The notes beneath the pieces are model-generated. The model was not told the DNA's origin. It was given only the letters and a program-made list of their open reading frames with translations, and did no database searches. DNA of 51,567 nt from a virus. Positions 413 to 47,865 of this stretch are shown here, in pieces (position 1 is the stretch's first letter; every line of letters starts with the position of its first letter). The stretch covers positions 1-51,567 of the IMG/VR virus record IMGVR_UViG_3300022913_000001. The stretch is one strand, 5' to 3'. The translations under genes and the position numbers were made by a program.

Positions 413-432
413 TGTTATAATTAATTATAACA
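413..432 (+). promoter_or_regulatory. Palindromic operator/promoter, perfect copy
   Basis: Perfect 20-bp palindrome TGTTATAATTAATTATAACA. It contains an extended -10 (TGTTATAAT, -10 at 416-421) 32 bp upstream of the gene at 453. No convincing -35 is seen at 16-17 bp, so it may depend on the extended -10 or an activator. It is one of eleven related sites in the genome. Confidence 0.75.
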
Positions 433-1426: not shown

Positions 1427-1812
1427 CAAATATTTATAATCAATGTAAAAAAATAAAACAGCATGAGAATGAGTTATCTAAATTAATTAGTGGCGGAATG
1501 CCTAGCAGATCTGTTAGAACAAAGCAGTTTTTAGCATCACAAGCAAAATGCAGGCAAATTGTTCAAAGCCACTGGGGTGAAATAATTAACTCTTATTACT
1601 CCATTCAACAAGTTTCGGCTCGGTTTAAATTTTCATTTAGGTTGATTAAATCAATACTAACTGAAACTCAAAAGCAGCAACTTAGAATTAAGTTTGAAAA
1701 AAAACTTCTTGATTTGTTAAAGCGTGGATGCTCTGTTAAAGAAATAGCTAAATTTTTTGAGGTTAGCACAACATTTATTAGACAAGAAATCATTAAATTA
1801 AAAAAAGGATAA
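1411..1812 (+). CDS. Small HTH protein related to the gene at 453
   Basis: A 133-residue basic protein. The C-terminal half contains one copy of the unit that appears twice in the protein at 453: an LTExQKxxL helix, then LLKRGCSVKEIAKFFEVS and TTFIRQEI, which reads as a homeodomain-like or sigma-like helix-turn-helix. It overlaps the endolysin gene by 16 bp, so translation is probably coupled. It may be a small regulator or terminase-like DNA-binding protein. No named family was recognised. Confidence 0.7.
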   Translation: MVKMLANIYNQCKKIKQHENELSKLISGGMPSRSVRTKQFLASQAKCRQIVQSHWGEIINSYYSIQQVSARFKFSFRLIKSILTETQKQQLRIKFEKKLLDLLKRGCSVKEIAKFFEVSTTFIRQEIIKLKKG

Positions 1813-1815
1813 ATT

Positions 1816-2109
1816 ATGTTTGATTTAATTACAACAATAAACACACCTGCACTTATTCAAAAAGATGATTTAATTATCCGTCAATTAGTTACTGAATATG
1901 ACAACAAGGTTGCAGCTGCTAAAGCTGCAATTGAAACGATAAAAGACCCAAAGTTCTTTGATGAAGCTCAAGCTTTTGGTTTACTTTATGTTGCTGCAAC
2001 ACAGTACGCGTATTCATCACCTAAACCGATTTATGATGTATATAGATCTGAATATGAAAGGCTGGACGAAATAAACACGGTTTATCCCCGTGCTTACGGG
2101 GAACACTAG
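1816..2109 (+). CDS. Small unknown protein whose C-terminus is encoded by a CRISPR repeat
   Basis: A 97-residue mainly helical protein with no recognised family. It follows the 1411 gene by 3 bp with a ribosome site AAAAAAGGA. Its last nine or so residues (VYPRAYGEH) are read from CRISPR repeat 1 (2078-2106), and the stop codon TAG is the first triplet of spacer 1. The array therefore appears to have landed in, or grown against, the 3' end of this gene, and the original C-terminus may be lost. Confidence 0.65.
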   Translation: MFDLITTINTPALIQKDDLIIRQLVTEYDNKVAAAKAAIETIKDPKFFDEAQAFGLLYVAATQYAYSSPKPIYDVYRSEYERLDEINTVYPRAYGEH

Positions 2110-2409
2110 ATTAGGTTTGATTTTCATTTTTAGCAGCGGTTTATCCCCGTGCTTACGGGGAACACAATTAATGATTTTTGCCAATCTATGCCAATAGCGG
2201 TTTATCCCCGTGCTTACGGGGAACACGGTTAGCGGTGATTTTAGAGTACAAACTCTGGCGGTTTATCCCCGTGCTTACGGGGAACACAGTTCCAGCGATT
2301 GCCTGCAAACTGCTGTATATGGTTTATCCCCGTGCTTACGGGGAACACTTCCGCAAGTTTCTTTTCTAATTGAGATGTGTCGGTTTATCCCCGTGCTTAC
2401 GGGGAACAC
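2078..2409 (-). CRISPR. Type I-E-like CRISPR mini-array carried by the phage
   Basis: Six 29-bp repeats start at 2078, 2137, 2198, 2259, 2320 and 2381. On the plus strand each begins CGGTTTATCCCC and ends CGGGGAACAC, with an inverted CCCCGT/ACGGGG stem. All are identical except the repeat at 2320, whose first base is T. Five spacers occupy 2107-2136 (30 nt), 2166-2197, 2227-2258, 2288-2319 and 2349-2380 (32 nt each). The repeat resembles the E. coli-type I-E repeat; read on the minus strand it ends GGGGATAAACCG, giving an ATAAACCG 5' handle. Transcription should therefore run leftwards from a leader at 2410-2500. No cas genes are present anywhere in the window, so crRNA maturation and interference would need host Cas proteins. 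No spacer was seen to match this genome by eye. Confidence 0.97.
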
Positions 2410-2494
2410 TCTTAACGAAATTACAAACAAAATCAACAACTTAAAAGCGTGCTTAAATGTTACCGAATTGTTACAGCGTATTTTCACTAAGTGA
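2410..2494 (-). promoter_or_regulatory. CRISPR leader transcript region
   Basis: An AT-rich stretch of about 85 nt between the predicted start of transcription (near 2494, minus strand) and the leader-proximal repeat (2381-2409). I see no convincing gene in it. New spacers would be expected to enter at its left edge if a host I-E adaptation machinery recognises it. Confidence 0.55.
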
Positions 2495-2529
2495 TAATTA
2501 ATTATAACAACTAATTTGACTATTTGCAA
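2490..2529 (-). promoter_or_regulatory. Palindromic promoter reading into the CRISPR array
   Basis: The palindrome copy at 2490-2509 has an intact right half. On the minus strand it gives an extended -10 TGTTATAAT (-10 at 2501-2506) with -35 TTGCAA at 2524-2529 and a 17-bp spacer. The left half carries two mismatches, so rightward use is weakened. This is the same promoter class that drives the phage's leftward genes, and it is correctly oriented to produce the pre-crRNA. Confidence 0.75.
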
Positions 2530-2540
2530 ATTATATATTA

Positions 2541-2610
2541 CAGTATAAAAACTGGCTTAGGAAACGGTCGCCTTGCACCCCCTAAGCGTCGATAGCAATA
2601 TCGGCAAGGC
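2541..2610 (+). ncRNA. Candidate pseudoknotted RNA element in the Sel1-operon 5' UTR
   Basis: Three perfect pairings interlock. Stem A is GCTTAGG (2555-2561) with CCTAAGC (2581-2587). Stem B is GCCTTGC (2570-2576) with GCAAGGC (2604-2610). Hairpin C is CGATA (2590-2594) with TATCG (2599-2603), closed by a GCAA (GNRA) tetraloop and abutting stem B for coaxial stacking. The order A-B-A'-C-C'-B' is an H-type pseudoknot with an inserted hairpin. A short CAGT/ACTG hairpin precedes it at 2541-2554. It is far more GC-rich than its surroundings and lies 45-115 bp before the ATG at 2655. It could be a riboswitch, ribosome-controlling element or small RNA. No known class was matched. Confidence 0.55.
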
Positions 2611-2654
2611 ATATCAAAACACCCCTCAAATTTCATTCATAGAATAGGAGATTT

Positions 2655-3116
2655 ATGGATACAGAAAATCAATTTAATAAAGCAATCAAGCTCTTAAAAC
2701 AAAAAAAATATACAGAAGTTTTTGATATACTTTTGAAGCTAGCTAATCAAGGACATGCTCCAGCTCAATTTCAGCTTGGCAAAATGTATGATTTAGGTAA
2801 AGGCGTAGATTTAGATCATCAGAAAGCTATTGAGTGGTACGAAAAATCAGCCGATCAAGGTTATATTAATGCTCAATTTAGCCTAGGTTCTTCATATTAT
2901 TTGGGTATAGGCGTAGAGCAAGACTACAGGAAAGCTGTTGAATGGTACACCAAAGCAGAAGAGCAAAACGATGCAGATTATAGCAAAGACGGTAAATTTT
3001 ATACTGGCGTAGACTCCATAGAATCGTTTAATTGGCACAAAGAAGCTGCAATTTCTGGGAAAAAATCAGCGTATTTTTATTTACTGGTAGATGGAGACGC
3101 AGCAAATGACTCATGA
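2655..3116 (+). CDS. Sel1-repeat protein 1
   Basis: A 153-residue protein made of Sel1-like (SLR, TPR-related) repeats of about 36 residues. Units of the form A-Q-F-x-L-G-x-M-Y-x-x-G-x-G-V-x-x-D-x-x-K-A-x-x-W-Y-x-K-A-A-x-x-G span roughly residues 35-105, after an N-terminal TPR-like helix pair (FDILLKLANQGHAPAQ). Sel1 repeats form helical scaffolds for protein-protein contact. No signal peptide is seen, so it is probably cytoplasmic. The ribosome site AGGAG is 5 bp before ATG. It is the first of three tandem Sel1 genes with short overlaps, forming one operon downstream of the structured RNA. Confidence 0.85.
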   Translation: MDTENQFNKAIKLLKQKKYTEVFDILLKLANQGHAPAQFQLGKMYDLGKGVDLDHQKAIEWYEKSADQGYINAQFSLGSSYYLGIGVEQDYRKAVEWYTKAEEQNDADYSKDGKFYTGVDSIESFNWHKEAAISGKKSAYFYLLVDGDAANDS

Positions 3117-3753
3117 AAAGATGAAAGCTAAATTTAATGAAGCAGCTGCACTTCGTAAAAAATGGGAATATGAAGCAGCTTTTAATATTTTTTCTGAATT
3201 AGTAAATTATGCCCCAGCTCAAAACCAATTAGGCGAAATGCATCAAAAAGGTTTGCATGTAGAGAAAGACTACAAAGAAGCTATCAAATGCTTTACTAAA
3301 GCTGCTGATCAAGGTTTTGGCAAAGCCAATTACAATCTAGGAGTTATGCATGAAGAAGGCGAAGGCGTAGAGAAAGATAAACAAAAAGCTTTTGATTACT
3401 ACAAGCTAGGAGCTGATCAGTGTTGTGTTGAATCTCTGCACCATCTAGGATACGCATATAAAAATGGCTGGTATGGTGTAAAACAAAACTACAAGAAAGC
3501 TATTGAATATTTTACCAAAGCAGCTAATCAAGGTTATTCTTACTCTCAATATGCATTAGCTATGATGCATCACCTAGGAGAAGGTGTAGATAAAGATGAT
3601 AATAAGGCTCTTGAATTATTTAAACAAGCAGCCGAGCAAAATTATCCAACAGCTCAAGTAATGATTGATGAGATTAATAAGGAGCCGCATTGTTTTTCGA
3701 TAATGCAAAAAGAATATGATGAAGTTAAAAGGAAAAGAAAAAATGACTGCTGA
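3106..3753 (+). CDS. Sel1-repeat protein 2
   Basis: A 215-residue Sel1-repeat protein with about four SLR units (for example NQLGEMHQKGLHVEKDYKEA and YNLGVMHEEGEGVEKDKQKA). I place the start at 3106 rather than the in-frame ATG at 3091: GGAG at 3093-3096 is 9 bp upstream, and the resulting start MTHEKMKAKF mirrors MTAEKIEAQF of the next paralogue. It overlaps the preceding gene by 11 bp and the next by 11 bp, implying translational coupling. Its role is unknown. Adaptor or host-interaction functions are usual for the family. Confidence 0.85.
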   Translation: MTHEKMKAKFNEAAALRKKWEYEAAFNIFSELVNYAPAQNQLGEMHQKGLHVEKDYKEAIKCFTKAADQGFGKANYNLGVMHEEGEGVEKDKQKAFDYYKLGADQCCVESLHHLGYAYKNGWYGVKQNYKKAIEYFTKAANQGYSYSQYALAMMHHLGEGVDKDDNKALELFKQAAEQNYPTAQVMIDEINKEPHCFSIMQKEYDEVKRKRKNDC

Positions 3754-4690
3754 AAAAATAGAAGCTCAATTTGATAAAGCAATGGGGCTTTACAATCAAG
3801 GAGACTACAAAGACGCTTTTGATGGTTTTTTAAAGTTGGCTAATCAAGGACATCCAGAAGCTCAAAATATGTTAGGCAACATGTATGACAGGGGCGAAGG
3901 AGTAAAAATTAACGACAAAAAAGCCATTGAATGGTACACTAAAGCAGCCGAGCAAGGCGATGTAGATGCTCAATTTAATTTAGCTTTTATGCATAGAAAC
4001 GGTATTGGCACAGAAGTTAGTCACAAAGAAGCTGCAAAGTGGTACACTAAAGCAGCCGAGCAAGGCGATGTAGATGCTCAATATAATTTGGGCAAAATGT
4101 ATGAATTAGGCGAAGGTGTAGAACAAGATTACGAGCAAGCTGCTTATTGGTACACCAAGGCAGCTGATAAAGGACATATATACGCTCAAACCGACCTAGC
4201 TGATATGTACAAGCAAGGCTACGGTGTAGAGCAAGATTATAAAAAAGCTTTTGATTTGTATAGCAAAGCAGCCGAGCAAGGAAGCTCCAGCGCTAAAAGA
4301 GGGTTAGCTAGCATGTATTATAACGGTAAAGGCGTGAAACAAGATAAGCAAAAAGCCAGAAAATTGCATCAAGCAGCCGACAATAAACTAGTTCAAAATG
4401 CCAAAACCTTTGTTAATTCAGACAACAACGGAACTGAAAAAAATGTATCGGACCTAGAGTTTTACGGCAATAAAGATTCATTTCAGTTAATCTGCAAGGC
4501 AAGCTCTCAAGCAGAAGGCTGGATGAAGTCAACTAAAGCTATGGAAATCAAAGGCGTTGGATGCTTAGTGCAAGTTTCTACTCAACACGGAGCGAGTGTT
4601 GCTGAAGCATTGACTTTTGTACCAGAAATAAAAATAGCTTGGATAGATGACAGCGATCATTCTAAAGGGCGTAAATTAGTAAAAATATAG
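3743..4690 (+). CDS. Sel1-repeat protein 3 fused to a phage-type C-terminal domain
   Basis: A 315-residue protein. Residues about 15-215 hold five to six Sel1 repeats. The last 80 residues, beginning LEFYGNKDSFQLICKASS and containing GWMKSTKAMEI and a beta-rich VQVSTQ...ALTFVPE segment, are a different domain. It resembles, as far as I can recall, short unnamed proteins found in other tailed phages next to gp49-type genes. The start at 3743 is preferred over 3716 because AAGGA lies about 10 bp upstream. A 43-bp exact direct repeat inside the Sel1 part points to recent repeat duplication. The next gene starts 6 bp after the stop. Confidence 0.8.
   Translation: MTAEKIEAQFDKAMGLYNQGDYKDAFDGFLKLANQGHPEAQNMLGNMYDRGEGVKINDKKAIEWYTKAAEQGDVDAQFNLAFMHRNGIGTEVSHKEAAKWYTKAAEQGDVDAQYNLGKMYELGEGVEQDYEQAAYWYTKAADKGHIYAQTDLADMYKQGYGVEQDYKKAFDLYSKAAEQGSSSAKRGLASMYYNGKGVKQDKQKARKLHQAADNKLVQNAKTFVNSDNNGTEKNVSDLEFYGNKDSFQLICKASSQAEGWMKSTKAMEIKGVGCLVQVSTQHGASVAEALTFVPEIKIAWIDDSDHSKGRKLVKI
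3932..4082 (+). repeat. 43-bp exact direct repeat inside the Sel1 gene
   Basis: Bases 3932-3974 and 4040-4082 are identical, 108 bp (exactly 36 codons, one Sel1 unit) apart. They encode WYTKAAEQGDVDAQ. Silent positions are also identical, so the duplication is recent or maintained by recombination. Confidence 0.9.
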
Positions 4691-24899: not shown

Positions 24900-25055
24900 C
24901 CTTATTATTTCTATTAAAAAAAAATTACTTTATAATTAATTAAAATATTTTCTAAAGTAAAAAAAATTTAACAGATTCTTGAGGATCTATTATTTAATGC
25001 AAAATTATAAAAATCTGTTATAATTAATTATAATAAATTAAATAAGGATAAAATT
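24900..25055. other. AT-rich intergenic region before the PAPS-reductase-like gene
   Basis: This 156-bp gap holds a degenerate operator-like stretch at 24928-24947 (four mismatches to the palindrome) and an inverted repeat, TAACAGATT (24969-24977) with AATCTGTTA (25012-25020). The second arm overlaps the operator at 25016-25035. No gene is seen. Confidence 0.55.
25016..25035 (+). promoter_or_regulatory. Palindromic operator/promoter for the PAPS-reductase-like gene
   Basis: Nineteen of 20 bases match the palindrome (one change in the right arm). Extended -10 TGTTATAAT (-10 at 25019-25024) lies 32 bp before the ATG at 25056. The sequence 16 bp upstream is ATGCAA, a poor -35, so it may be weak or need an activator. 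Confidence 0.65.
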
Positions 25056-25982
25056 ATGAATAACTTTATAAATGATAGAATCACAGATCTAACAAATTGG
25101 GGTAACAACAACGGAGCAGCTGAAAGACTTCAAAATGCATTTAATAAAAATACTAATCATGTGATTAGCTTTAGCGGTGGTCGTACTTCTGCATATCTGG
25201 TTTATAGATTACTGCAAATAGTTCCTAATGCTGCGGTTGTGTTTTGCGACACAGGTGCAGAGCATCCAGAAACATATAAATTTATAAGAAGATTTGCTGA
25301 AAACTTTAATGTAGATATTACTTGCCTTAGGGCTGTTGTTAATCCTGAAAAAGGAAAAGGGATCACATATAAAGAAGTGGTAATAACGGACATTAAGCAT
25401 GATCTAGAACCTTTTAAAGCAGTAATGCAGAAATATTCAACACCATATATAGGAGGTGCGTTTTGCACTGATAGAATGAAAGCCACTCCGTTTAAAAAAT
25501 ATTGTGAAGACAAGTGGGGTAGAGGTAATTACAAAACTTGGTTAGGTATCCGAATAGATGAGCCTAAAAGGATTAGAAAGAGTGATGATTTTTTATATTT
25601 AGCTGATATTTGTGATTATGAAAAGCAAGATATTTTAAACTTTTGGAAGAAGCAACCTTTTGATCTTGGCATTCAACACCATCTTGGCAACTGTGTGTTC
25701 TGCATTAAAAAGAGTTGCGGCAAGGTTGCTTTAGCTGCTAGAGATGAACCTAAATTAGCTAAGGATTTCATTAAAATAATTAACATTGCAGCTGATAGAC
25801 CAAGTAAAGAAGATAAAAGGGTTATGTATAGAAGCCATAACACTTTAGAATCTATTATTGATCAATACGCTGATTATAGTAGAACTGATATCATCGGTAG
25901 ATTAAAAAACTCACATCAGTATCAAAGTGAATGCAGTGAGTCGTGTGAAGCTGTTGGCGAACAGCTTAAGTTTGATTTTTAA
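25056..25982 (+). CDS. PAPS reductase / PP-loop ATPase family protein
   Basis: A 308-residue protein of the adenosine 5'-phosphosulfate/PAPS reductase-like PP-loop family. The PP loop is SFSGGRTSAYLVY (residues about 33-45), followed by VVFCDTGAEHPET and later LGIRIDEPKRIRKSDD. A Cys cluster, NCVFCIKKSCGK, near residue 210 could bind a metal or cluster. Phages carry such proteins widely; roles in sulfur or base modification have been proposed, not shown for this type. It has its own palindromic promoter and an AGGATA ribosome site. Confidence 0.8.
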   Translation: MNNFINDRITDLTNWGNNNGAAERLQNAFNKNTNHVISFSGGRTSAYLVYRLLQIVPNAAVVFCDTGAEHPETYKFIRRFAENFNVDITCLRAVVNPEKGKGITYKEVVITDIKHDLEPFKAVMQKYSTPYIGGAFCTDRMKATPFKKYCEDKWGRGNYKTWLGIRIDEPKRIRKSDDFLYLADICDYEKQDILNFWKKQPFDLGIQHHLGNCVFCIKKSCGKVALAARDEPKLAKDFIKIINIAADRPSKEDKRVMYRSHNTLESIIDQYADYSRTDIIGRLKNSHQYQSECSESCEAVGEQLKFDF

Positions 25983-36198: not shown

Positions 36199-36714
36199 TT
36201 ATTTATTTTTATTAGCAATCTTAAGTAAAGACTCGGTTAGCTTTTCTCTTTTCTCATGCTCACCGCTATCACCTGTTAAAGCCAATTTTAACCAAGCAGA
36301 GAAGTCTGCCAATAAATACCTATGATTTTCAAAACCAAAATCTTTTGCAAAGTCTTGCATTAAAAACAAAACGTTTCGGAGTGTAACAGTGCTATCAGGC
36401 TTGTTTTTAATCTTGGTGTTGTATTTTATGCTCAACTCAAGATCAGAGATTAATACATGAAGCAAACATTCTGCTTGCTTAAAGCTAGCATCGGCACATG
36501 TCTCAAGCTCACGATCTAATCTTTTAATAGAAAAGTTTTGATTTAACATTGCCCAATCTGCCAACAACCGATTTCTTTGTTCAGGATTTGCTGCTTTAGC
36601 TTTGTTAATAATTGCCAACTGAGCGTTTTTGTGAGCAAGCATCATTTCAAAATGCTGAATTTTTTTAGTAACAGTTGACTCTGTTGCAATGATGTTTTGT
36701 AATTTAGTGTTCAT
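36199..36714 (-). CDS. Unknown helical protein
   Basis: A 171-residue, almost fully helical, charged protein. N-terminal half looks like a coiled coil (VTKKIQHFEMMLAHKNAQLA). A C-terminal WLKLALTGDSGEHEKREKL segment follows. No family recognised. It is a single-gene unit with AAGGATAATATT ribosome site and its own palindromic promoter (36749-36787). Expression is probably early, inferred from the promoter class. Confidence 0.65.
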   Translation of the reverse strand: MNTKLQNIIATESTVTKKIQHFEMMLAHKNAQLAIINKAKAANPEQRNRLLADWAMLNQNFSIKRLDRELETCADASFKQAECLLHVLISDLELSIKYNTKIKNKPDSTVTLRNVLFLMQDFAKDFGFENHRYLLADFSAWLKLALTGDSGEHEKREKLTESLLKIANKNK

Positions 36715-36748
36715 AATATTATCCTTATTTAATTTTGTTTAACTTAAT

Positions 36749-36787
36749 TGTTATAATTAATTATAACAGGTTTATTTATTAATGCAA
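36749..36787 (-). promoter_or_regulatory. Palindromic promoter, perfect copy
   Basis: Perfect palindrome at 36749-36768. Leftward: -35 TTGCAT (36782-36787), 16-bp spacer, -10 TATAAT (36760-36765) in TGTTATAAT. Drives the gene at 36199-36714. Confidence 0.85.
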
Positions 36788-36797
36788 GTATTAATGC

Positions 36798-36824
36798 AAA
36801 AAAAAATTTAGGCGTTAACCTAGG
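36798..36824 (-). terminator. Weak terminator after the membrane-tail Sel1 gene
   Basis: On the minus strand, a short CCTAGG/CCTA-type hairpin (36809-36824) is followed by nine T residues (complement of 36798-36806). The stem is only about 4 bp. It looks like a decayed relative of the terminator at 36154. Confidence 0.4.
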
Positions 36825-36841
36825 GTTGTTCTTAAATTGTT

Positions 36842-37921
36842 TTATGCAAAATAACCCACTTTAAAAACAAGAGCAATACTTGATAAAACAAATTTTAAAA
36901 AAGAAGAAAACTTTATATTAATTTCATTTTGATATTTTTCTTCTATTAACTCTTTGTTTTGATTTGCAATTTTTATATTTTCACAAGTAGTTCTAGCTTG
37001 ATCAACTTCTCTTTTTTCAAAATCGTTTCTAGGAGCTATGTTGTCTAATATCTCAATAGCTTTGTTATGATTTAATGCTGTTCCTTTACCTTCTGCATGC
37101 ATACGAGCTAAATCAAATTTAGCATCCATCCTGCCTTTCTTTGCTGCTTTTTCATACCAATAAACTGCTGTTTGATAATTTTGCAACAATGTTTCTTTTT
37201 TTTCATAAAATCTAGCTAAATTATATTGAGCTTCTGCATGCCCTTGCTCTGCTGCTTGCGTAAACCAATAAACGGCTTTTTCAAAGTCTTGCTCTACGCC
37301 TTCTTGACCTTCATCATACATTTCACCTAGGTTGGATTGAGCTTGAGCATTCCCTTGATCAGCTGCCTTGGTGTACCACTTAACAGTTTCTTTACTATTT
37401 TGCTTTACACCGTAGCCTATTTTATACATAAAACCTAAACAAGATTGCACCTTTGCATTGCCTCGTTCAGCTGCTTTAATAAGCCATTCAATAGCTTCTT
37501 TGCGGTCTGTTTCTACAAATTTGCCTTCGTAGTACATATTAATTAAATTATTTTGAGCATTTGCATCACCTTGATCAGCTGCTTTAGTCCACCAGCTAAA
37601 TGCTTTTTTAAAGTCTTGCTCTACACCTTCGCCCACATAATATAGCTTACCTAAAACATATTGAGCATTAATATAACCCTGATCGGCTGATTTTTCGTAC
37701 CATTCAACAGCTTTTTGGTAATTTTGATTTACGCCTTCTTTGCCTTTCTCATATATAACGGCTAGATGATATTGAGAGTAAATAAACCCTTGCTCTGCTG
37801 CCTTGGTGTGCCACTCAATAGCTTTTTGGTAATTTTGCTTTACTTCATACATAAAGCCTAAATCAAATTGAGCATTTACATCACCCGCTTCGGTTTTCTC
37901 TTCTAATTCTTTTATATCCAT
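36842..37921 (-). CDS. Sel1-repeat protein with C-terminal membrane segment
   Basis: A 359-residue protein. Residues 1-290 are about eight Sel1 repeats (for example YVLGKLYYVGEGVEQDFKKA and NLGEMYDEGQEGVEQDFEKA). The last 20 residues are hydrophobic (FLKFVLSSIALVFKVGYFA), a possible tail anchor. It may be a membrane-bound scaffold in the host. GGAAAGG precedes the ATG. It follows genes at 37930 and 38289 in one leftward unit. Confidence 0.82.
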   Translation of the reverse strand: MDIKELEEKTEAGDVNAQFDLGFMYEVKQNYQKAIEWHTKAAEQGFIYSQYHLAVIYEKGKEGVNQNYQKAVEWYEKSADQGYINAQYVLGKLYYVGEGVEQDFKKAFSWWTKAADQGDANAQNNLINMYYEGKFVETDRKEAIEWLIKAAERGNAKVQSCLGFMYKIGYGVKQNSKETVKWYTKAADQGNAQAQSNLGEMYDEGQEGVEQDFEKAVYWFTQAAEQGHAEAQYNLARFYEKKETLLQNYQTAVYWYEKAAKKGRMDAKFDLARMHAEGKGTALNHNKAIEILDNIAPRNDFEKREVDQARTTCENIKIANQNKELIEEKYQNEINIKFSSFLKFVLSSIALVFKVGYFA

Positions 37922-37929
37922 AACCTTTC

Positions 37930-38280
37930 CTATTTCTGCAAAATCTTGTAAGTAACCTTATTCTTCGACCCTCTGTAAAAAAACTGACATTCAAGCATAT
38001 CTTTTTCACCTACAATTGGTCTAACGGCAACATGAAACAAAGCAATGGACTTAAAGTGTTGCTCTGGAAAGTTGTAGTAATATTGACGATAAAATTTGTT
38101 TTGATTACCATCCCAAGCAGTTAGATGAATAAATTCACCACGAATCATGCATTTATCGTTTATGCTTTTCATGTTGTTAGCTAGCGTCACCTCGATGACA
38201 CATTCGGACGATACTTTAATTACAATAATACGATCATTAGGTATATCGTATTTAGTGTTGGTTTTAAGTTCAGACATCAT
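37930..38280 (-). CDS. Unknown protein
   Basis: A 116-residue beta-rich protein. Two in-frame methionines (38280 and 38277) sit at the start. Motif-like features are a hydrophobic IIVIKVSSECVIEVTLA strand pair and YRQYYYNFPEQHF. No family recognised. It lies between the methyltransferase-like gene and the Sel1 gene, 8 bp from each. Confidence 0.55.
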   Translation of the reverse strand: MMSELKTNTKYDIPNDRIIVIKVSSECVIEVTLANNMKSINDKCMIRGEFIHLTAWDGNQNKFYRQYYYNFPEQHFKSIALFHVAVRPIVGEKDMLECQFFYRGSKNKVTYKILQK

Positions 38281-38288
38281 GTTGCGTA

Positions 38289-38837
38289 CTACTCTCCAGC
38301 TTTGTATTTACGAATAATATAAAGTGAATCATTGTTTGCAGTTTGTACAACCCATTGTCTTTTTGTGTTTTCAATTGCTGTACTTATTAAACTACAGTTA
38401 ATGTTAGTAGCTAATAAATTAACTACAATATCGTTTTCCTTAGAAAAAGAACATATAATATCTTCTAAAAAAGCAACTGGTTTGTCGTTTAAACCATCAG
38501 ATTCATATGAATAAACACGGGGTACACTAGGTGAAAACGCTTCTGGGTTGTGGTGCTTACTAAACACTAAAACATCTTCAAATTGTCTACCATTTAACCA
38601 AATAGCTCTATAACATAAAGGCAACTCTTTTTCTTGATGTTGAATAAAATCTTTTCCATATTCAGTTTTAGCAATTACAACAGCAGTTCCTCCAGGGCGA
38701 AGTAATTTTAATGATTCTTGCATTATTGGTTGAGCGTAAGGGCGAAAAGTCATTCTAGAATCTGGTGCTACGGTAGTAAATTCTACCGCATTAATTAAAA
38801 CTAAATCTGCTTTGTTTTCGTTTTTTTGTGTTTTCAT
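38289..38837 (-). CDS. Degenerate DNA methyltransferase-like protein
   Basis: A 182-residue protein with the outline of a beta-class (N4/N6) DNA methyltransferase but altered key motifs. The DPPY-loop position reads DLVLINAVEFTT (residues 11-22) without DPPY. LKLLRPGGTAVVIA (43-56) fits the usual strand after it. The SAM-site region reads FLEDIICSFSKENDIVVNLLATNINCSLIS (123-152), where active enzymes have DPFxGSGTT. It is also short. A catalytically dead relative that may still bind DNA or mask sites is a reasonable reading. It has AAGGAATATT and its own promoter at 38861-38899. Confidence 0.5.
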   Translation of the reverse strand: MKTQKNENKADLVLINAVEFTTVAPDSRMTFRPYAQPIMQESLKLLRPGGTAVVIAKTEYGKDFIQHQEKELPLCYRAIWLNGRQFEDVLVFSKHHNPEAFSPSVPRVYSYESDGLNDKPVAFLEDIICSFSKENDIVVNLLATNINCSLISTAIENTKRQWVVQTANNDSLYIIRKYKAGE

Positions 38838-38860
38838 AATATTCCTTTTGTTGTTTAAGT

Positions 38861-38899
38861 TATTATAATTAATTATAATAACTTTATTTATTAATGCAA
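38861..38899 (-). promoter_or_regulatory. Palindromic promoter, symmetric variant
   Basis: TATTATAATTAATTATAATA (38861-38880): both arms carry the same G/C to A/T change, so symmetry is kept. Leftward: -35 TTGCAT (38894-38899), 16-bp spacer, -10 TATAAT (38872-38877). The compensating change is strong evidence that dyad symmetry is selected. Confidence 0.82.
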
Positions 38900-38912
38900 A
38901 TATCTATTTAAA

Positions 38913-39257
38913 TCAATCATCCGATCCAGAACTGCTTGAACTGCTTGAGCTGCTTGAGCTGCTTGAGCTGCTTGAACTGCCCGAATCCCCTACGCTAGTA
39001 GGTAAATACAAAGGGCTATACGGATTATAAGGGCTATACCAATCACAATCACTACTGCTGTTATGATCACAGCCACGAGAACGAGTTGTAGAAGCAGTAG
39101 CCTTTCCTTTAGAGGTCGGCTGAAGCTTTTCTTCTTCTTTTTCCTCTTCCTCTTCCACTGGATCGCATTCATTAGGCAACACAGCCCAACCAATCCAAAA
39201 CAACACAATTGCTGCATAAATTAAAATTATTACAAAAGTTATTCCTGTTTCTGTCAT
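38913..39257 (-). CDS. Membrane protein with polyserine tail
   Basis: A 114-residue protein. Residues 5-25 are one membrane helix (GITFVIILIYAAIVLFWIGWA), then an acidic EEEEEKEEE run, a Ser/Thr-rich basic part, a DWYSPYNPYSPLY aromatic segment and 17 consecutive Ser codons near the C-terminus. It ends the operon that starts at 40836. Function unknown; surface display or host-envelope interaction is possible. Confidence 0.6.
   Translation of the reverse strand: MTETGITFVIILIYAAIVLFWIGWAVLPNECDPVEEEEEKEEEKLQPTSKGKATASTTRSRGCDHNSSSDCDWYSPYNPYSPLYLPTSVGDSGSSSSSSSSSSSSSSSSSGSDD
38928..38978 (-). repeat. Serine-codon microsatellite
   Basis: A run of 17 Ser codons, mainly a 9-nt pattern of AGC-AGC-TCA and AGC-AGT-TCA. 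Regular arrangement suggests growth by slippage. Reverse frames give no plausible gene. Confidence 0.9.
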
Positions 39258-39270
39258 TTTTTATTTTCTC

Positions 39271-39699
39271 CTATATAAATTTACGAATAAGCCATACTAA
39301 CCATCGAGCATCAAAAGCTTTCTTTTTAGTGATGATTGTTAAAGGGTTGATGAGCGGACGATGAATGGAAAATCTCACATAAACATAGCCGTTTTTTTTA
39401 AAAGCATTGATAGATTTATCGACTAACCAGTATTGTCGAGACTCATCTAGTTCTGGTAAAATATTTTCAATACAATGCTTAGAATCCTTTAAGCCTAAAC
39501 CAACAAAATCGTTTTCTTTAAATTTCACATATCCAGATTTGTTGTAAATCTCTTTTTCTTTAAATGAAATTATTGAGTGAGTGTCTTCATCATAACCGTA
39601 GGTTAAGCCAAGAACATGCTCATGCCTTAAACAGATCACAATCGGTGTTGTAACCAACAATGCAATCCATAGTGGAATGGTCAGAATTAGTGCTTCCAT
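39271..39699 (-). CDS. Small membrane-anchored protein beside the Panacea gene
   Basis: A 142-residue protein with an N-terminal hydrophobic helix (ALILTIPLWIALLVTTPIVI) and a polar C-terminal domain of mixed strands. AGGAATAATA precedes the ATG. It follows the Panacea gene by 13 bp, so it is in the same leftward operon and is a candidate partner. No family recognised. Confidence 0.6.
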   Translation of the reverse strand: MEALILTIPLWIALLVTTPIVICLRHEHVLGLTYGYDEDTHSIISFKEKEIYNKSGYVKFKENDFVGLGLKDSKHCIENILPELDESRQYWLVDKSINAFKKNGYVYVRFSIHRPLINPLTIITKKKAFDARWLVWLIRKFI

Positions 39700-39712
39700 T
39701 ATTATTCCTGTT

Positions 39713-40198
39713 TTATAATGATTGATAATAGTTTTTAACTACATCATGTTGTATAGCTGTTGATTTAAATTGATTAAACCAAGGAACTTCTTTTTCATGT
39801 GTTATAGAAACTAAAACAGACGCTTTTAAGCGTCCATATTCTTGCCAGCACTTGTTTAAAACATCCAGTATCTCTTTATCTTTATTTTTGTATTCTGGCT
39901 CTATTTTGCCTTCATTAGCTGTATCTGAATCATAAAAATAAGATAATGAATCTATAGAGTCATAACCATAGCTTTTAAAAGAGTGGTATGTTTCTAAATG
40001 AACAGGTCCATACTTCCAAGCATGGAAGTTACTGTTGGCACCTATTAAGTTTTTTTCTAGTATAGCTAAAGTCCATCCGTAGCCAATAAACATTAGTTTT
40101 TGTAATTTAAAATTAGTAATAGCCAATCCCTCTAATTGGCTATTTTTAATAAAAAAGTTTGATAGCTTGTAATGCTCTTGAGAGCCAAGAATATCCAT
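39713..40198 (-). CDS. Panacea-domain (DUF4065/GepA) protein
   Basis: A 161-residue protein with the DUF4065 layout. N-terminal LSNFFIKNSQLEGLAITNFKLQKLMFIGYGW, then NFHAWKYGPVHLETYHSFKSYG (residues about 55-76), and the C-terminal YGRLKASVLVSITHEKEVPW. Panacea domains act as neutralising antitoxins for many unrelated toxins. Its start overlaps the stop of the 40198-40836 gene (TAATG), so the two are made together. The order membrane protein, Panacea, membrane protein suggests a toxin-antitoxin or defence module with a membrane toxin; this pairing is inference. Confidence 0.8.
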   Translation of the reverse strand: MDILGSQEHYKLSNFFIKNSQLEGLAITNFKLQKLMFIGYGWTLAILEKNLIGANSNFHAWKYGPVHLETYHSFKSYGYDSIDSLSYFYDSDTANEGKIEPEYKNKDKEILDVLNKCWQEYGRLKASVLVSITHEKEVPWFNQFKSTAIQHDVVKNYYQSL

Positions 40199-40836
40199 TA
40201 AATCCTCAAGTTTGCATTGTTGTAATCAGATGGAGCCATGCTAGATAAATCAATTAACTCTCGTTTTCTATAATACAAGCTATTGTTTGTTAAGTTTTGA
40301 ATTAAATGCGTATTTTTTTGCGTTTTGGTTATTACAATCCTTTCAGATTTACTTAAAAAAACAGTTAATGCCCAACCTACTTTTAATTTGCGAAAAGTTT
40401 TTGATTTACTATGATAAATGCAAGAATCATGAATAATCAGATCGTCACGATATAGAAAAAAAGAAAATGTATCATGAACAACATGAGGTAGTTCAAGAGG
40501 TAAGTGGTTATAATGAAGCATAGAATATTTTCCTGGAGTGCGGTTATCATTTGAATTTCGAAAAAATGCATTATCAACAACATACATTATGGCTACAATT
40601 AGGAATGCAAATACAGCTGATAAAAGCCAATCTGTGATTGTAATCTGGTGATTGCTTGTCATTGCATCACTTTCTTCTTTAAGCTGCTCTTCCTCTTCTT
40701 TATTAGCTTTTGATGATTTGTTTAATGTCTTATAGACGCTAGTAGCAACAAGAGCTTTTCCGGGGCTAATTCCCATAGTATGCAGACTGTATGCATTGCA
40801 AGAAATAATTGACAAAATTAAAAAAAATTTATTCAT
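40198..40836 (-). CDS. Membrane protein coupled to Panacea
   Basis: A 212-residue protein. N-terminal signal-like segment (FFLILSIISCNAYS), a charged KEEEEQLKEES run, one membrane helix at about 72-92 (WLLSAVFAFLIVAIMYVV) and a C-terminal cytoplasmic-looking beta domain of about 110 residues (FSFFLYRDDLIIHDSC; RKLKVGWALTVFLSKSERIV). First gene of the leftward operon under the promoter at 40884-40922. Candidate toxin partner of the Panacea protein. No family recognised. Confidence 0.65.
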   Translation of the reverse strand: MNKFFLILSIISCNAYSLHTMGISPGKALVATSVYKTLNKSSKANKEEEEQLKEESDAMTSNHQITITDWLLSAVFAFLIVAIMYVVDNAFFRNSNDNRTPGKYSMLHYNHLPLELPHVVHDTFSFFLYRDDLIIHDSCIYHSKSKTFRKLKVGWALTVFLSKSERIVITKTQKNTHLIQNLTNNSLYYRKRELIDLSSMAPSDYNNANLRI

Positions 40837-40883
40837 TATTATTATTCCTGCAATCTTTCCTTTGTTATTTAAAATAATTAAGT

Positions 40884-40922
40884 TGTTAAAATTAATTATA
40901 ACAGGTTTTAAGATGATTGCAA
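40884..40922 (-). promoter_or_regulatory. Palindromic promoter of the Panacea operon
   Basis: TGTTAAAATTAATTATAACA (40884-40903), one change in the left arm. Leftward: -35 TTGCAA (40917-40922), 16-bp spacer, -10 TATAAT (40895-40900). The left-arm T-to-A change spoils the -10 for rightward use only, so these copies look one-directional. Confidence 0.85.
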
Positions 40923-40931
40923 GTATTAAGT

Positions 40932-40954
40932 AAAAAAACCCTGCCGAAGCAGGG
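40932..40954 (-). terminator. Rho-independent terminator (UUCG loop)
   Basis: Perfect stem CCCTGC (40939-40944) with GCAGGG (40949-40954). On the minus strand the loop is TTCG, followed by seven T residues. Terminates the coiled-coil gene. Near-identical to the terminator at 43521. Confidence 0.92.
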
Positions 40955-40962
40955 GTTGTTGT

Positions 40963-42492
40963 TTAATCTAGTTCTAGCGTAATGCCGTCAATTTTTACAT
41001 TATCCAAAAACAGCTTGCATATAACCCAAGAGGCTGCCTTTGCTTTTACTTCATCACAGCCGTTTAGTTTAGCCACCAGCTGGTTTGTAATTGACTTATA
41101 CAGCTTGTTAGCGCTTTCTTTAGATAAGCCAGCTACTTTTTCCGCTTTAGCTTTTTCAATTGCTTCTCTTTCCGCTTTAGTTTTTTCAGCTGATTCAATC
41201 TTAGCTTGAGTTAATTGGCTGTTTAGATGACTTAATCTGTTTTTAACTTGATCAGTAATAATTAAAAGATCATCTTTGTGGTTATGGATAGACTCAATAG
41301 CCTGATTAACATTATCAACAGTTAAAATAGGAACATAAGATAAGCGTTCTAGCAACTCTATAGCTGCTTGTCGTTTCTTTTCTTCTGAGAACTGCTTGCC
41401 TTGATTAAGTATTAAAGAGTAATGCTCCTCTAAAACTTTTAAAGCTTTAGCAATCTCTGACTGAATAGTAATATCGCTATCGCCATATTCACTTGGTTGA
41501 ACCGAAAGCAAGAACTCCTTCTGCTTTTTCATCTCTTGCAACAATTCTCTTGCATGGTCTATGCTGTGGGCTGATTGCAAGTTACTACTAATGTTTTTTA
41601 TTTTATCCAATAAATCCACAACTGCTTGGGATGCAGTGTTTTTTTGCTCTGCTAAAGATGCTTGCTCTATCAAGCTGTTAATTTTGCTTAAGCCGTACTC
41701 TTTAGCTTCTTTAGCTGATTCAAGCAAAAACCCAAACTCATCTTGATTAACAAGTTTAGCTTCTAGCTGTTTTTTTAGCTGTTGAAGATTGCTACAGCTC
41801 ATGTTGTCAAGAAGCTTGCCACCCTCACTAAATGGCTTGCTATAAGCTCTAATTTCCGCAATTTTTTCTTCAAAAACTTTGCGGTTAGCTTCTGATATCT
41901 CAAGCTCTCTGGTTTTCTTAAACTCATCTAACCAATCCAAAACAACAATCTTTTTTTGCCTTAAATCAGATGCAAGATACTCATCATCTGCTATCTCTAA
42001 TGCAACTAGTTTGTCTCTTAATTTATCTATAATAGATAGAGACAAGGTTGGAGCAATTACCCCGCCATCTTCTATATTGGTTCGAAACTTTTCTATTTCA
42101 GCAAGCTTCTCTTCATGTGCTGCAACTCTAGCTTCTTCGGCTGCTTTCCATTCAGCAACAGGAGCTTTAATTGATGCTGATATAGCGTCAACATCTGTAA
42201 CAAATTGCTTAAGAGCTGCTTTATAAGCTTTAACATCAACTTCCATCTCTGCAATTTTTTCTTTTAAAGCTTTTTGTATTGCTACTTTGCTAGAACCAAC
42301 TTTTTTCGCTAATGAGTTTCTAGCTTTTCTAGTGGATTCTTGGTTTATATCCATTGCATCTAGTTTAGTTATTTCAGGAGCAACCGCTTCTTGTAGCGCA
42401 ACCATGACTGATTGCAGTCCGTTTTGAACCACTGTAACGCTAGTGGTTTCAATCGTTTCTAATACAATTAGATCTTTTTTTGTTTCGCTCAT
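40963..42492 (-). CDS. Long coiled-coil protein of the recombination cluster
   Basis: A 509-residue, strongly helical and charged protein. I set the start at 42492 (AAAGGAAATATTATT before ATG); an open extension to 42588 runs through the promoter and is not real. Heptad-rich segments cover about residues 60-140 (KVAIQKALKEKIAEMEVDVK) and 260-460. It lies directly downstream of recT, like the DUF1351-type or other coiled-coil partners of phage recombination genes. Function unknown. Confidence 0.72.
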   Translation of the reverse strand: MSETKKDLIVLETIETTSVTVVQNGLQSVMVALQEAVAPEITKLDAMDINQESTRKARNSLAKKVGSSKVAIQKALKEKIAEMEVDVKAYKAALKQFVTDVDAISASIKAPVAEWKAAEEARVAAHEEKLAEIEKFRTNIEDGGVIAPTLSLSIIDKLRDKLVALEIADDEYLASDLRQKKIVVLDWLDEFKKTRELEISEANRKVFEEKIAEIRAYSKPFSEGGKLLDNMSCSNLQQLKKQLEAKLVNQDEFGFLLESAKEAKEYGLSKINSLIEQASLAEQKNTASQAVVDLLDKIKNISSNLQSAHSIDHARELLQEMKKQKEFLLSVQPSEYGDSDITIQSEIAKALKVLEEHYSLILNQGKQFSEEKKRQAAIELLERLSYVPILTVDNVNQAIESIHNHKDDLLIITDQVKNRLSHLNSQLTQAKIESAEKTKAEREAIEKAKAEKVAGLSKESANKLYKSITNQLVAKLNGCDEVKAKAASWVICKLFLDNVKIDGITLELD

Positions 42493-42521
42493 AATAATAT
42501 TTCCTTTGTTGTGTATGAACT

Positions 42522-42560
42522 TGTTAAAATTAATTATAACAGGTTTTAAAATGATTACAA
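42522..42560 (-). promoter_or_regulatory. Palindromic promoter of the coiled-coil gene
   Basis: TGTTAAAATTAATTATAACA (42522-42541). Leftward: -35 TTGTAA (42555-42560), 16-bp spacer, -10 TATAAT (42533-42538). Confidence 0.82.
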
Positions 42561-42570
42561 ATTTTAATGC

Positions 42571-42599
42571 AAAAAAAAAACCCCACATGAAGCGGGGCT
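42571..42599 (-). terminator. Rho-independent terminator after recT
   Basis: On the minus strand, CCCCGC pairs with GTGGGG around a TTCAT loop (one G-U pair), followed by ten T residues (complement of 42571-42580). Works only for leftward transcripts. Confidence 0.88.
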
Positions 42600-42616
42600 T
42601 GTTAGGTTGGGGTTAA

Positions 42617-43438
42617 TTAAAACGGTTCTTCGTCAAGATCATCTTCATAATCAACGCTTTCGGCTTTGTTGCTTTGTTTTACTTTTGCATTAATAATTTT
42701 ATTTTGATTAACTGGAGGAGGAGTGTTAACTGGAGGCGGGTTGTTAACTTGATTTTGCTCTGGCTCAAAATAATCTTCATCTTCATCAGGAACATCAAGA
42801 CCTTCAAGAGGAATGTTTTTAAAAAGCTTTTTGATAGCAGTTTTTTCCCACATTTGTTCTTCCCAAGTTTTCCAAGGGCTGTTGCTACTGTTACCGCTTC
42901 GACTAGTATTCTTGCATTTAATAATATAACTTTTAGGGCAAATAGCGTAAATAGTTACGGTTTTGTTGCCTCTAATTATTTCAGCTAAAGCATATGCTAG
43001 TTTCATCTCACCACGCTGAAATTCATCTAAATTGTAATCAATTTTATGAGTTAATTCGTTAGTTACTGGATTGTAATCAAACTTATCTTTTTCACGAACA
43101 ACAAAAGCCTGAATGCGTGAAATGTTAGGGTTGCGGTATGCTAAAGTAATCAACCCTTGAGCCATGATAACTAAAGAAGCTCTGCCAGCAAATGGAACTA
43201 ATGCTGCTTGCTTTCCGTCAACTGGAATATTTAAAGCAAGAGCGTCTTTGCAGGTTGCAATTAATGACATTGGATCAACATTATTTTTTAAACTAGGGTT
43301 TTTTATTAACGCAGAGCTTAAACTAGCCACTGCCTTTTTCATTTTTGTTGCATCGTTTTCAAAAAACGACAACAAACCGCTTTCTGTTGCAGCTGTTGTT
43401 AACGCATTTTTAGTATTCCAAGTGATTTGTGTTCCCAT
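42617..43438 (-). CDS. recT: RecT-family single-strand annealing protein with SSB-like tail
   Basis: A 273-residue RecT-type annealing protein. Family pattern: NPSLKNNVDPMSLIATCKDALALNI, GKQAALVPFAGRASLVIMAQGLITLAYRN (residues about 75-105) and a C-terminal core WKTWEEQMWEKTAIKKLFKNIPL. A Pro/Asn/Gln-rich linker (about 225-250) follows, ending in DYEDDLDEEPF. The acidic tip with terminal Pro-Phe is like the SSB C-terminal peptide that recruits repair proteins. The nuclease partner is at 44989. AAGGAAAAATT precedes ATG. Confidence 0.9.
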   Translation of the reverse strand: MGTQITWNTKNALTTAATESGLLSFFENDATKMKKAVASLSSALIKNPSLKNNVDPMSLIATCKDALALNIPVDGKQAALVPFAGRASLVIMAQGLITLAYRNPNISRIQAFVVREKDKFDYNPVTNELTHKIDYNLDEFQRGEMKLAYALAEIIRGNKTVTIYAICPKSYIIKCKNTSRSGNSSNSPWKTWEEQMWEKTAIKKLFKNIPLEGLDVPDEDEDYFEPEQNQVNNPPPVNTPPPVNQNKIINAKVKQSNKAESVDYEDDLDEEPF

Positions 43439-43466
43439 AATTTTTCCTTATTTGATTTGGGTTAAC

Positions 43467-43505
43467 TGTTAAAATTAATTATAACAAGTTTATTTATTAA
43501 TGCAA
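43467..43505 (-). promoter_or_regulatory. Palindromic promoter of recT
   Basis: TGTTAAAATTAATTATAACA (43467-43486). Leftward: -35 TTGCAT (43500-43505), 16-bp spacer, -10 TATAAT (43478-43483). Confidence 0.85.
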
Positions 43506-43513
43506 ATATTAAG

Positions 43514-43542
43514 TAAAAAAAAACCCTGCCGAAGCAGGGTTT
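43514..43542 (-). terminator. Rho-independent terminator (UUCG loop)
   Basis: Perfect 9-bp stem AAACCCTGC (43521-43529) with GCAGGGTTT (43534-43542), TTCG loop on the minus strand and a T tract beyond (complement of 43515-43523). Ends the 43548-44615 unit. Same core as at 40939. Confidence 0.92.
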
Positions 43543-43547
43543 GTTGT

Positions 43548-44615
43548 TTAGTCTATTTCAACTTCTTCTAATGCTCGGTCGCATTCCACTATGTATTGCC
43601 AGAGCGTTTTGTTATGAAGTGTGTCAAAGGTAAATGCAAATTCCATTTTCTTATCTGTACCTACATAATCACAAGCTCTCTTTAGCAAATCAATAAAAGG
43701 GTTTTCTTCGGAACAAGAAGAACAATCAGATCGTGTTGTGGATTTTAAATAATTCTCTATATCAGATACAGAATCAAATTTTGAAACAATCTCGTCCTGA
43801 ATATAATTAAAAACAAAATTGTGAAACTCGGTTAGATCGTGTTCAAATAAGTATTTAACATTAATTGGTTTTAGCTTGACCTCAACAATTTTTAAGTCTT
43901 CTTTTTCCTTAACTGGAGTTTCTTCTTTAACAACAACTGGGGTTTCAACAACAACTGGAGTTTCTTCTTCTTCCTTAAACTCTATATTAGCAGCCCACAA
44001 CGCATCGCTTACCTTTTCTAAAACTTCTCTTTGATTATCGTAATTATTGTCAAACTCACGCAGGTAATCCTCTATTTTGCCTTGAGATCTGGCAAGGTCT
44101 TCTGCTGCATTTAGCTCATTACCGCCGTCACACAGACTGTCTTCTCCGACCATTTTATAAACAAAAGTTCCAACATCAACGCATACTTTGGCTTTGATAT
44201 GATTATTAATATGATAACTGTCAATTGAATTAATAATACGCGGATGGTAATTATTAACACCAAACGGCTGTTTGTAGTTTTCAGGATCTACAATAGAGCC
44301 AACATATTGCAGAATTTTTTCAATTGTGTCGTTATAACTCCAAAAATCTTCATTGTTTACAGCAGCTTGAGTTAGAAAAGTGGCTTTATGATTTATATCA
44401 CCATTTAACGCAGTAGAGATGTTTAGAAGATAATGCATAATGGCTTGGGTGTATGACTCATAGTCTTCATGGTAATCATTAAAACGAAACCTTTCTAAAA
44501 TCTCATCAGAGATCTCAATATCTTCTAATTTGTCATCAATTTCAATATCAGTTTTAAATTCAGTTTTAAAGTAATCTTGCAGCAATGCAAACTCGTTGTT
44601 TATATTAAATTTCAT
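43548..44615 (-). CDS. Unknown acidic protein of the recombination cluster
   Basis: A 355-residue acidic protein with two folded parts joined by a Val/Glu/Pro/Thr linker (residues about 218-245) containing repeated ETPVVV and EETPV words. The second half holds RSDCSSCSEENPF, a possible metal or redox Cys pair. No family recognised. It has its own promoter (44645-44683) and terminator, and GGAAAAATT before ATG. Confidence 0.65.
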   Translation of the reverse strand: MKFNINNEFALLQDYFKTEFKTDIEIDDKLEDIEISDEILERFRFNDYHEDYESYTQAIMHYLLNISTALNGDINHKATFLTQAAVNNEDFWSYNDTIEKILQYVGSIVDPENYKQPFGVNNYHPRIINSIDSYHINNHIKAKVCVDVGTFVYKMVGEDSLCDGGNELNAAEDLARSQGKIEDYLREFDNNYDNQREVLEKVSDALWAANIEFKEEEETPVVVETPVVVKEETPVKEKEDLKIVEVKLKPINVKYLFEHDLTEFHNFVFNYIQDEIVSKFDSVSDIENYLKSTTRSDCSSCSEENPFIDLLKRACDYVGTDKKMEFAFTFDTLHNKTLWQYIVECDRALEEVEID

Positions 44616-44644
44616 AATTTTTCCTTATTTAATTTTGTTTAAAC

Positions 44645-44683
44645 TGTTAAAATTAATTATAACAGGTTTTAAGATGATTGCAA
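44645..44683 (-). promoter_or_regulatory. Palindromic promoter of the 43548-44615 unit
   Basis: TGTTAAAATTAATTATAACA (44645-44664). Leftward: -35 TTGCAA (44678-44683), 16-bp spacer, -10 TATAAT (44656-44661). The -35 lies inside the last codons of the upstream Sel1 gene. Confidence 0.85.
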
Positions 44684-44971
44684 ATTTTCTTTTAAGATTT
44701 TTTGAGCATGTACATCACCCTGCTCGGCTGCTTTAGTGTACCATTCAATGGCTTTTTTGTTATCTTGCTTTACTCCTTGACCTTTTTCGTACATTTCACC
44801 TAGATTAAATTGAGCATCTACATTTCCTTGATTAGCTGATTTAGTAAACCATTTAACAGCTTTTTCATAACTTTGCTCTACGCCTTCTCCTATATCATAC
44901 ATAGTACCTAAATTAACTTGAGCCTCCGCACCCCCTGCTTCGGCTTGTTTTTTTAATTTCTCTATGTTCAT
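44669..44971 (-). CDS. Short Sel1-repeat protein
   Basis: A 100-residue protein with two to three complete Sel1 repeats (VNLGTMYDIGEGVEQSYEKA; FNLGEMYEKGQGVKQDNKKA). No membrane segment. AAGGAGAATAATT precedes the ATG. It is cotranscribed with the RecE-like nuclease gene, 17 bp downstream of it. It resembles a single-unit relative of the larger Sel1 proteins. Confidence 0.82.
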   Translation of the reverse strand: MNIEKLKKQAEAGGAEAQVNLGTMYDIGEGVEQSYEKAVKWFTKSANQGNVDAQFNLGEMYEKGQGVKQDNKKAIEWYTKAAEQGDVHAQKILKENLQSS

Positions 44972-44988
44972 AATTATTCTCCTTTTAT

Positions 44989-45781: not shown

Positions 45782-45820
45782 TTGATTATTTGTTAATTTA
45801 TGTTATAATTAATTATAACA
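45782..45820. promoter_or_regulatory. Perfect palindrome between divergent nuclease and helicase genes
   Basis: TGTTATAATTAATTATAACA (45801-45820). Rightward: -35 TTGATT (45782-45787), 16-bp spacer, -10 TATAAT (45804-45809). Leftward: -10 at 45812-45817 with a poor -35. A single operator could thus control both directions. Confidence 0.82.
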
Positions 45821-47509: not shown

Positions 47510-47865
47510 ATGAAAACACTTTAACAAAAAAAATAATGCTGGCACTACCAAAACTAGTGCGAGTATTTAGGAATCATGTTGGAACAGTTAAGGACCAAAG
47601 AGGCGTTTGGCATAAATTTGGATTAATGCCAGGCAGTGCAGATTTAATTGGTTATGCTAAAATTAAAATTACACCAGATATGGTTGGCAAAACTATACCA
47701 GTTTTTACTTCATTAGAGGTAAAAACGGATAAAGGAAAACAGCATGAAGCTCAACTTAAATGGCAAAATGCCATGCATAACGCAAATGCAATTCATGGGG
47801 TAGTAAGAAGCCTCGAAGATGCAGAACAAATAGTTAACAACTGGAAACAGGAGCAAGAGAAATAA
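47506..47865 (+). CDS. VRR-NUC domain nuclease
   Basis: A 119-residue protein with VRR-NUC motifs: N-terminal FRNHVGTVKD, GLMPGSADLIG (residues about 43-53) with the catalytic Asp, FTSLEVKTDKGK (about 68-79) with the E-x-K pair, then a HEAQLKWQNAM helix. Probably a structure-specific or Holliday-junction nuclease. It overlaps the helicase gene by 4 bp and the next by 1 bp. Confidence 0.85.
   Translation: MNENTLTKKIMLALPKLVRVFRNHVGTVKDQRGVWHKFGLMPGSADLIGYAKIKITPDMVGKTIPVFTSLEVKTDKGKQHEAQLKWQNAMHNANAIHGVVRSLEDAEQIVNNWKQEQEK

Follow-up and report, generated by a model that had tools for sequence, protein, structure and literature searches.

A CRISPR array without cas genes in a phage genome, behind a predicted promoter of the phage's own operator class

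Some viruses carry CRISPR arrays without any cas genes (these are also treated in a review, PMC11656645), and at issue is whether viruses control such arrays like their own genes. In SPV1 and SPV2 (Medvedeva 2019, PMC6858448), mini-CRISPR arrays without cas genes have host-type repeats and a leader that bears a promoter, and host Cas proteins are presumed to serve them. The array that we describe here is alike in all of these respects. By 2019, the mini-arrays reported from bacteriophages had no leader, according to that paper (PMC6858448). The arrays of huge phages (PMC7162821) resemble ours in being compact (a median of six repeats), and some are presumed to rely on host Cas proteins. Similarly, a study of Clostridioides difficile (PMC6079278) describes arrays that lie within phage genomes, are expressed, and work with the host's cas genes.

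We analyzed virus record IMGVR_UViG_3300022913_000001 (51,567 bases, 34% GC); "the window" below means this whole stretch. It is a complete-looking virus genome that has a direct terminal repeat of 127 bp and encodes head, portal, terminase, and baseplate proteins. Matches to phage proteins point, loosely, to phages of Gammaproteobacteria. A leftward block of genes (36199-45777) includes RecT and an exonuclease VIII-like nuclease; the same block encodes a SocA/Panacea antitoxin-like protein (39713-40198, Pfam E = 2e-15). For one 51-kb phage, there are several genes with Sel1-type repeats (2655-4690, 36842-37921, and 44669-44971), of which 3716-4690 was assigned by Pfam and the remaining ones were judged from shared repeats. 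Before the Sel1 gene at 2655, in what is presumed to be its 5' leader, a GC-rich island (2552-2612) folds into two adjacent hairpins with a possible pseudoknot (GCCTTGC/GCAAGGC; fold z-score of -1.8); this island has no match in Rfam.

The evidence for the array locus comes from this one genome. Searches with the portal protein found only a 3.5-kb fragment (L010) without the array region, searches with the terminase found no relatives, and searches with RecT found distant relatives only. Two other candidate relatives (L008 and L009) were set aside, as their basis was a match of 30 residues. Scans of IMG/VR with the repeat and the palindrome that is described below found no other phage, just one single AT-rich match (L023).

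The features of the locus and of the phage's operators are listed in Table 1. The repeats of the array start at 2078, 2137, 2198, 2259, 2320, and 2381, and one of the six has a T for a C at its edge. The spacers are of 30, 32, 32, 32, and 32 nt. On the minus strand, the repeat is GTGTTCCCCGTAAGCACGGGGATAAACCG, which forms a stable hairpin. The length of the repeat, the hairpin, the AUAAACCG handle, and spacers of about 32 nt are those of type I-E arrays. The crRNA strand is the minus strand, so the leader side is to the right (2410 onward).

The identical repeat is found in five gammaproteobacterial genomes (four Xenorhabdus and one metagenome-assembled genome of Shewanellaceae), and at one locus (L003), it adjoins Cas6e, Cas1e, and Cas2e. 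An order-wide search for the repeat found only two genomes, both already known. A complete type I-E CRISPR-Cas system would have cas genes in the same genome, and we found none among the phage proteins that were scanned (some small ORFs lay outside the scan). By these features, we classify the locus as a cas-less type I-E array within phage DNA. Could the assembly be a chimera? An operator in the leader, phage genes on both sides of the array, and the terminal repeat argue against this. As a separate observation, the phage ORF at 1816-2109 gives the impression that its original 3' end has given way to the array.

Table 1. Positions of the array, its predicted promoter and leader elements, and the other copies of the phage operator palindrome.
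Feature	Coordinates	Strand	Basis
Cas-less type I-E CRISPR array: six 29-nt repeats, five spacers	2078..2409	-	Repeat identity to host arrays
Phage ORF; the leader-distal repeat and the first bases of the adjoining spacer supply its final residues and stop codon	1816..2109	+	
Leader-repeat junction TTAAGA	2410..2415	-	PWM from ten I-E leaders, genome-wide p ~0.004
Exact IHF consensus WATCAANNNNTTR (AATCAACAACTTA), -34 to -22 from first repeat	2431..2443	.	
CGGTAAC, -56 to -50; weak, one-base-shifted GGTAGA (candidate upstream Cas1-Cas2 element)	2459..2465	-	
Copy of phage operator palindrome, TGTTATAATTAATTATCACT, 18/20	2490..2509	-	Palindrome scan
Predicted -10 hexamer TATAAT; extended -10 TG at 2508-2509	2501..2506	-	Promoter scan
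Predicted -35 hexamer TTGCAA, 17 bp from -10	2524..2529	-	Promoter scan
Exact palindrome before rightward operon 453-2109, antisense into array	413..432	+	
Palindrome, 1 mismatch, before PAPS-reductase-like gene	25016..25035	+	
Exact palindrome, TTGCAT -35 at 16 bp	36749..36768	-	
Palindrome, 2 mismatches, TTGCAT at 16 bp	38861..38880	-	
Palindrome, 1 mismatch, TTGCAA at 16 bp	40884..40903	-	
Palindrome, 1 mismatch, TTGTAA at 16 bp	42522..42541	-	
Palindrome, 1 mismatch, TTGCAT at 16 bp, before recT	43467..43486	-	
Palindrome, 1 mismatch, TTGCAA at 16 bp	44645..44664	-	
Exact palindrome between exonuclease VIII-like gene (left) and helicase gene (right)	45801..45820	.	

The phage genome contains a recurring 20-bp palindrome, TGTTATAATTAATTATAACA. 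There are 3 exact copies, 8 copies with at most one mismatch, and 10 with at most two, while shuffled sequences gave 0, 0, and 0.01 copies at these thresholds. All 10 copies are intergenic, and intergenic DNA makes up about 6% of the genome. Half of the palindrome doubles as a -10 element. Of the 16 occurrences of TGNTATAAT in the genome, 13 belong to the palindrome class. At the copies other than the one by the array, a start codon lies 32-59 bp from the -10. In the 36199-45777 block, the six leftward promoters have a spacing of 16 bp and share AAAACC/AATAAAC motifs in the spacer between the -35 and the -10. The exonuclease-like gene that ends this block at 45777 has no recognizable -35 at its own copy (45801-45820).

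At 25016-25982, the -10 of a one-mismatch operator copy is followed, 32 bp downstream, by the PAPS-reductase-like gene, so this gene is probably in the same phage regulon. A search of the phage proteins for regulators identified no repressor or activator of the palindrome. Two candidates were rejected: for the protein at 47865-48281, the AlphaFold2 model was set aside (mean pLDDT of 52), and for the protein at 1411-1812, the matches to helix-turn-helix models were weak.

One copy of the palindrome lies in the leader of the array. A sequence-only reading of this DNA had claimed that, just beyond the leader-side repeat, an intact half of the palindrome forms a leftward extended -10 with a TTGCAA -35 at 17 bp. 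We found these elements at 2529-2501 on the minus strand. The half is indeed intact, as both mismatches of the 2490-2509 copy fall in the half that is distal to the leftward -10. Similarly, four of the six leftward promoters in the recombination block carry their changes in the half away from the -10. The predicted transcription start is at about 2494 on the minus strand, or about 85 nt from the first repeat.

Taken on its own, a generic sigma-70 scan of this region is not significant (5 sites in 1500-3200, versus 5.1 expected). The array promoter is significant because its -10 is half of the phage's palindrome, not because of the sigma-70 pattern alone. Once the perfect extended -10 is taken as given, agreement of the following 11 bases with the palindrome at no fewer than 9 positions has a probability of about 0.002; given the -10, the chance of TTGCAW at a distance of 16-18 bp is about 0.004. 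We also built a model whose only training data were the recombination block's six leftward promoters. It ranked the array promoter 8th among all positions in the genome and second among the sites outside of its training set. That the array promoter belongs to the phage's operator-promoter class is well supported by these comparisons.

The array promoter appears to be of the same class as the promoters of the recombination genes, as had been proposed, but not of the same architecture, because those six promoters use 16 bp and another spacer sequence. In other words, the leftward subtype (TTGCAW at 16 bp with the AAAACC/AATAAAC motif) does not extend to the array, and the likeness of its -35 to theirs is one hexamer only. 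The broader claim, that the array looks wired into the phage regulon, is supported in part: a promoter of the phage's class, the right orientation, and a normal distance across the leader speak for it, while the spacing of the -35 differs. crRNA expression on the schedule of infection is what we infer from this arrangement. The net output of crRNA should not be assumed, because the promoter at 413, which is of the same class, runs antisense into the array; we found no strong terminator between the two.

Two other similarities near the promoter were discarded. An inverted repeat, TCACTAAGTGA (2484-2494), is unremarkable, as there are 81 such repeats with arms of 5 in the window, and the weak similarity that blastn found between 2481-2517 and an enterobacterial phage (H43) was put down to chance in AT-rich sequence.

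The palindrome at 2490-2509 might not serve the array at all. It could act chiefly for the rightward Sel1 genes (2655 onward), or it could be an operator copy that simply chanced to be at this place, and the array would then be a passive, recently inserted element that shows hardly any phage-timed expression, if any. A weaker rightward promoter (GTTACA-17-GATAAT) does use the other half of the palindrome, and the ORF at 1816-2109 ends within the leader-distal repeat, as it would after a recent insertion. However, it is the rightward -10 half that is mutated, while the leftward half is perfect and has the TTGCAA. Also, the next rightward ATG is 146 bp away, as compared to the 32-59 bp from -10 to ATG at the other operators. 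We consider a passive insertion to be quite unlikely.

The DNA between the promoter and the first repeat has features that the sequence-only reading had missed, namely elements like those for adaptation in type I-E systems. In the I-E leaders of E. coli, Cas1-Cas2 contacts positions -1 to -4, IHF binds at -9 to -35, another element lies upstream at -50 to -55, and transcripts start about 50 and 95 nt upstream of the repeat (PMC10011333). For comparison, we assembled ten I-E leaders (from nine host loci and two E. coli arrays, with near-duplicates removed). Some 50 nt from the repeat, these leaders share a conserved element that resembles GGTAGA, and the junction with the repeat is mostly of the TTAGA type.

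The phage has counterparts of these elements, as a statistical signal. When the best of five offsets is taken, the CGGTAAC element has a genome-wide p of 0.0025, and it is weaker than the corresponding element in all 10 host leaders. Exact matches to the IHF consensus occur 12 times in the window (p ~0.01 per 60 nt). With thresholds that were derived from the phage sequence itself, just 1 of 103,008 positions combines the junction, the -50 element, and the IHF consensus, and that position is the array's leader. The host leaders that we examined do not contain the exact IHF consensus, so the phage's IHF site is not evidence of descent. The I-E leader profile, when applied to the whole phage leader, is not significant (ungapped rank of 861 out of 103,012), and nhmmer gave no hit at the array leader among the matches listed. 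These results suggest, without proving, that 2410-2465 may be a diverged I-E leader.

Alternatively, a low-GC host might have supplied the entire leader together with its promoter, and the resemblance to the phage operator would be due to coincidence or to a host factor that controls both. The weak leader elements are at the right distances for this, and the promoter is positioned as in the leaders of E. coli. The two conditional chances (~0.002 for the extension of the palindrome and ~0.004 for the -35) weigh against coincidence, and the operator palindrome is in none of the host leaders that we examined. A wholly host-derived leader therefore seems very improbable. Instead, with a phage promoter on the outside and elements for spacer acquisition on the inside, the leader looks like a hybrid: the outer part (from 2490 rightward) would be phage regulatory DNA, and the inner part (2410-2465) would retain weak elements for Cas1-Cas2 and IHF.

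We looked for the targets of the spacers. None matches the rest of the phage genome over more than 14 consecutive bases, and BLAST searches with the whole region found no protospacers in annotated phages or plasmids. Spacers 3 and 4 were also compared to IMG/VR as 20-mers, while the other spacers were covered by the whole-region BLAST only. Spacer 3 had no match in IMG/VR, and the match for spacer 4 (L024) was judged to be chance (22/32, within a stretch of 63% GC). Because the spacers do not match their carrier, the targets are most likely rival mobile elements.

The lack of protospacers for any spacer that was tested would also fit with a decoy. If crRNAs from a strong phage promoter flooded the host's Cascade and Cas6e, they would weaken the host's immunity to the phage, and the array would extend the principle of RNA anti-CRISPRs to several repeats. 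A non-targeting crRNA, like Racr, is reported to lower type I-F interference when it is expressed (PMC10651486), and the perfect extended -10 of the array promoter would suit such a role. But that result concerns type I-F rather than I-E, and five distinct spacers of regular length, along with elements for spacer uptake, are unnecessary in a decoy. We view a decoy as unlikely, if less so than the passive insertion or the host-derived leader.

The reading that we prefer is that the phage carries a cas-less I-E array, with a promoter of the phage's regulon about 85 nt upstream, that is used by the host's Cascade. We give this a probability of roughly 0.62. During infection, leftward transcription from about 2494 would yield a pre-crRNA. 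This would be cut by the host's Cas6e, since the array's repeat is identical to I-E repeats of hosts, and the crRNAs would be loaded into the host's Cascade. A further step is more tentative, and we would sooner bet against it than for it: the phage may have domesticated an updatable CRISPR memory, in which its operator-promoter replaced the host's promoter, the crRNAs are phage-timed, and, by way of the inner leader, the host's Cas1-Cas2 and IHF add spacers to the phage DNA in the course of infection. If there is truly a phage regulon promoter together with elements for uptake, then the timing of crRNAs relative to the phage's early genes becomes testable, and so does the collection of new spacers by the phage during infection.

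How does this locus differ from the known systems? The RNA anti-CRISPRs that are encoded as solitary repeat units (PMC10651486) also have a host-type repeat behind a promoter in the phage genome, without cas genes. However, Racr is a single repeat with no spacer, while this array has six intact repeats and five spacers, so it is not a Racr. The huge phages have genomes of over 200 kb and often carry cas genes, and we found no description of the promoter class of their arrays in the accessible part of the report (PMC7162821). The C. difficile arrays are of type I-B and lie in prophages, and we found no report of a phage regulon promoter for them in the accessible part of that study (PMC6079278). 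As for the leader, the order of its elements is that of E. coli (promoter, -50 element, IHF site, and junction), with a start in the range of 50-95 nt upstream (PMC10011333), but the promoter appears to be a phage operator-promoter, and the -50 element is weak and shifted by one base.

Like the virus-borne mini-CRISPR arrays, this array lacks cas genes and has host-type repeats; because it has five spacers, rather than one or two, we class it as a cas-less phage array, outside the strict definition of a mini-array. The arrays of SPV1 and SPV2 have a host-like leader and promoter, one or two spacers that match relatives, and an archaeal host (PMC6858448), whereas the phage array seems to have a promoter of the phage's own class and has five spacers, with targets that were not found. 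In the open-access papers that we searched, we found no earlier case of an array in a phage genome with a regulon promoter of that phage in front of it. Viral arrays without cas genes were already known; a phage-regulon promoter in front of one would be the new element.
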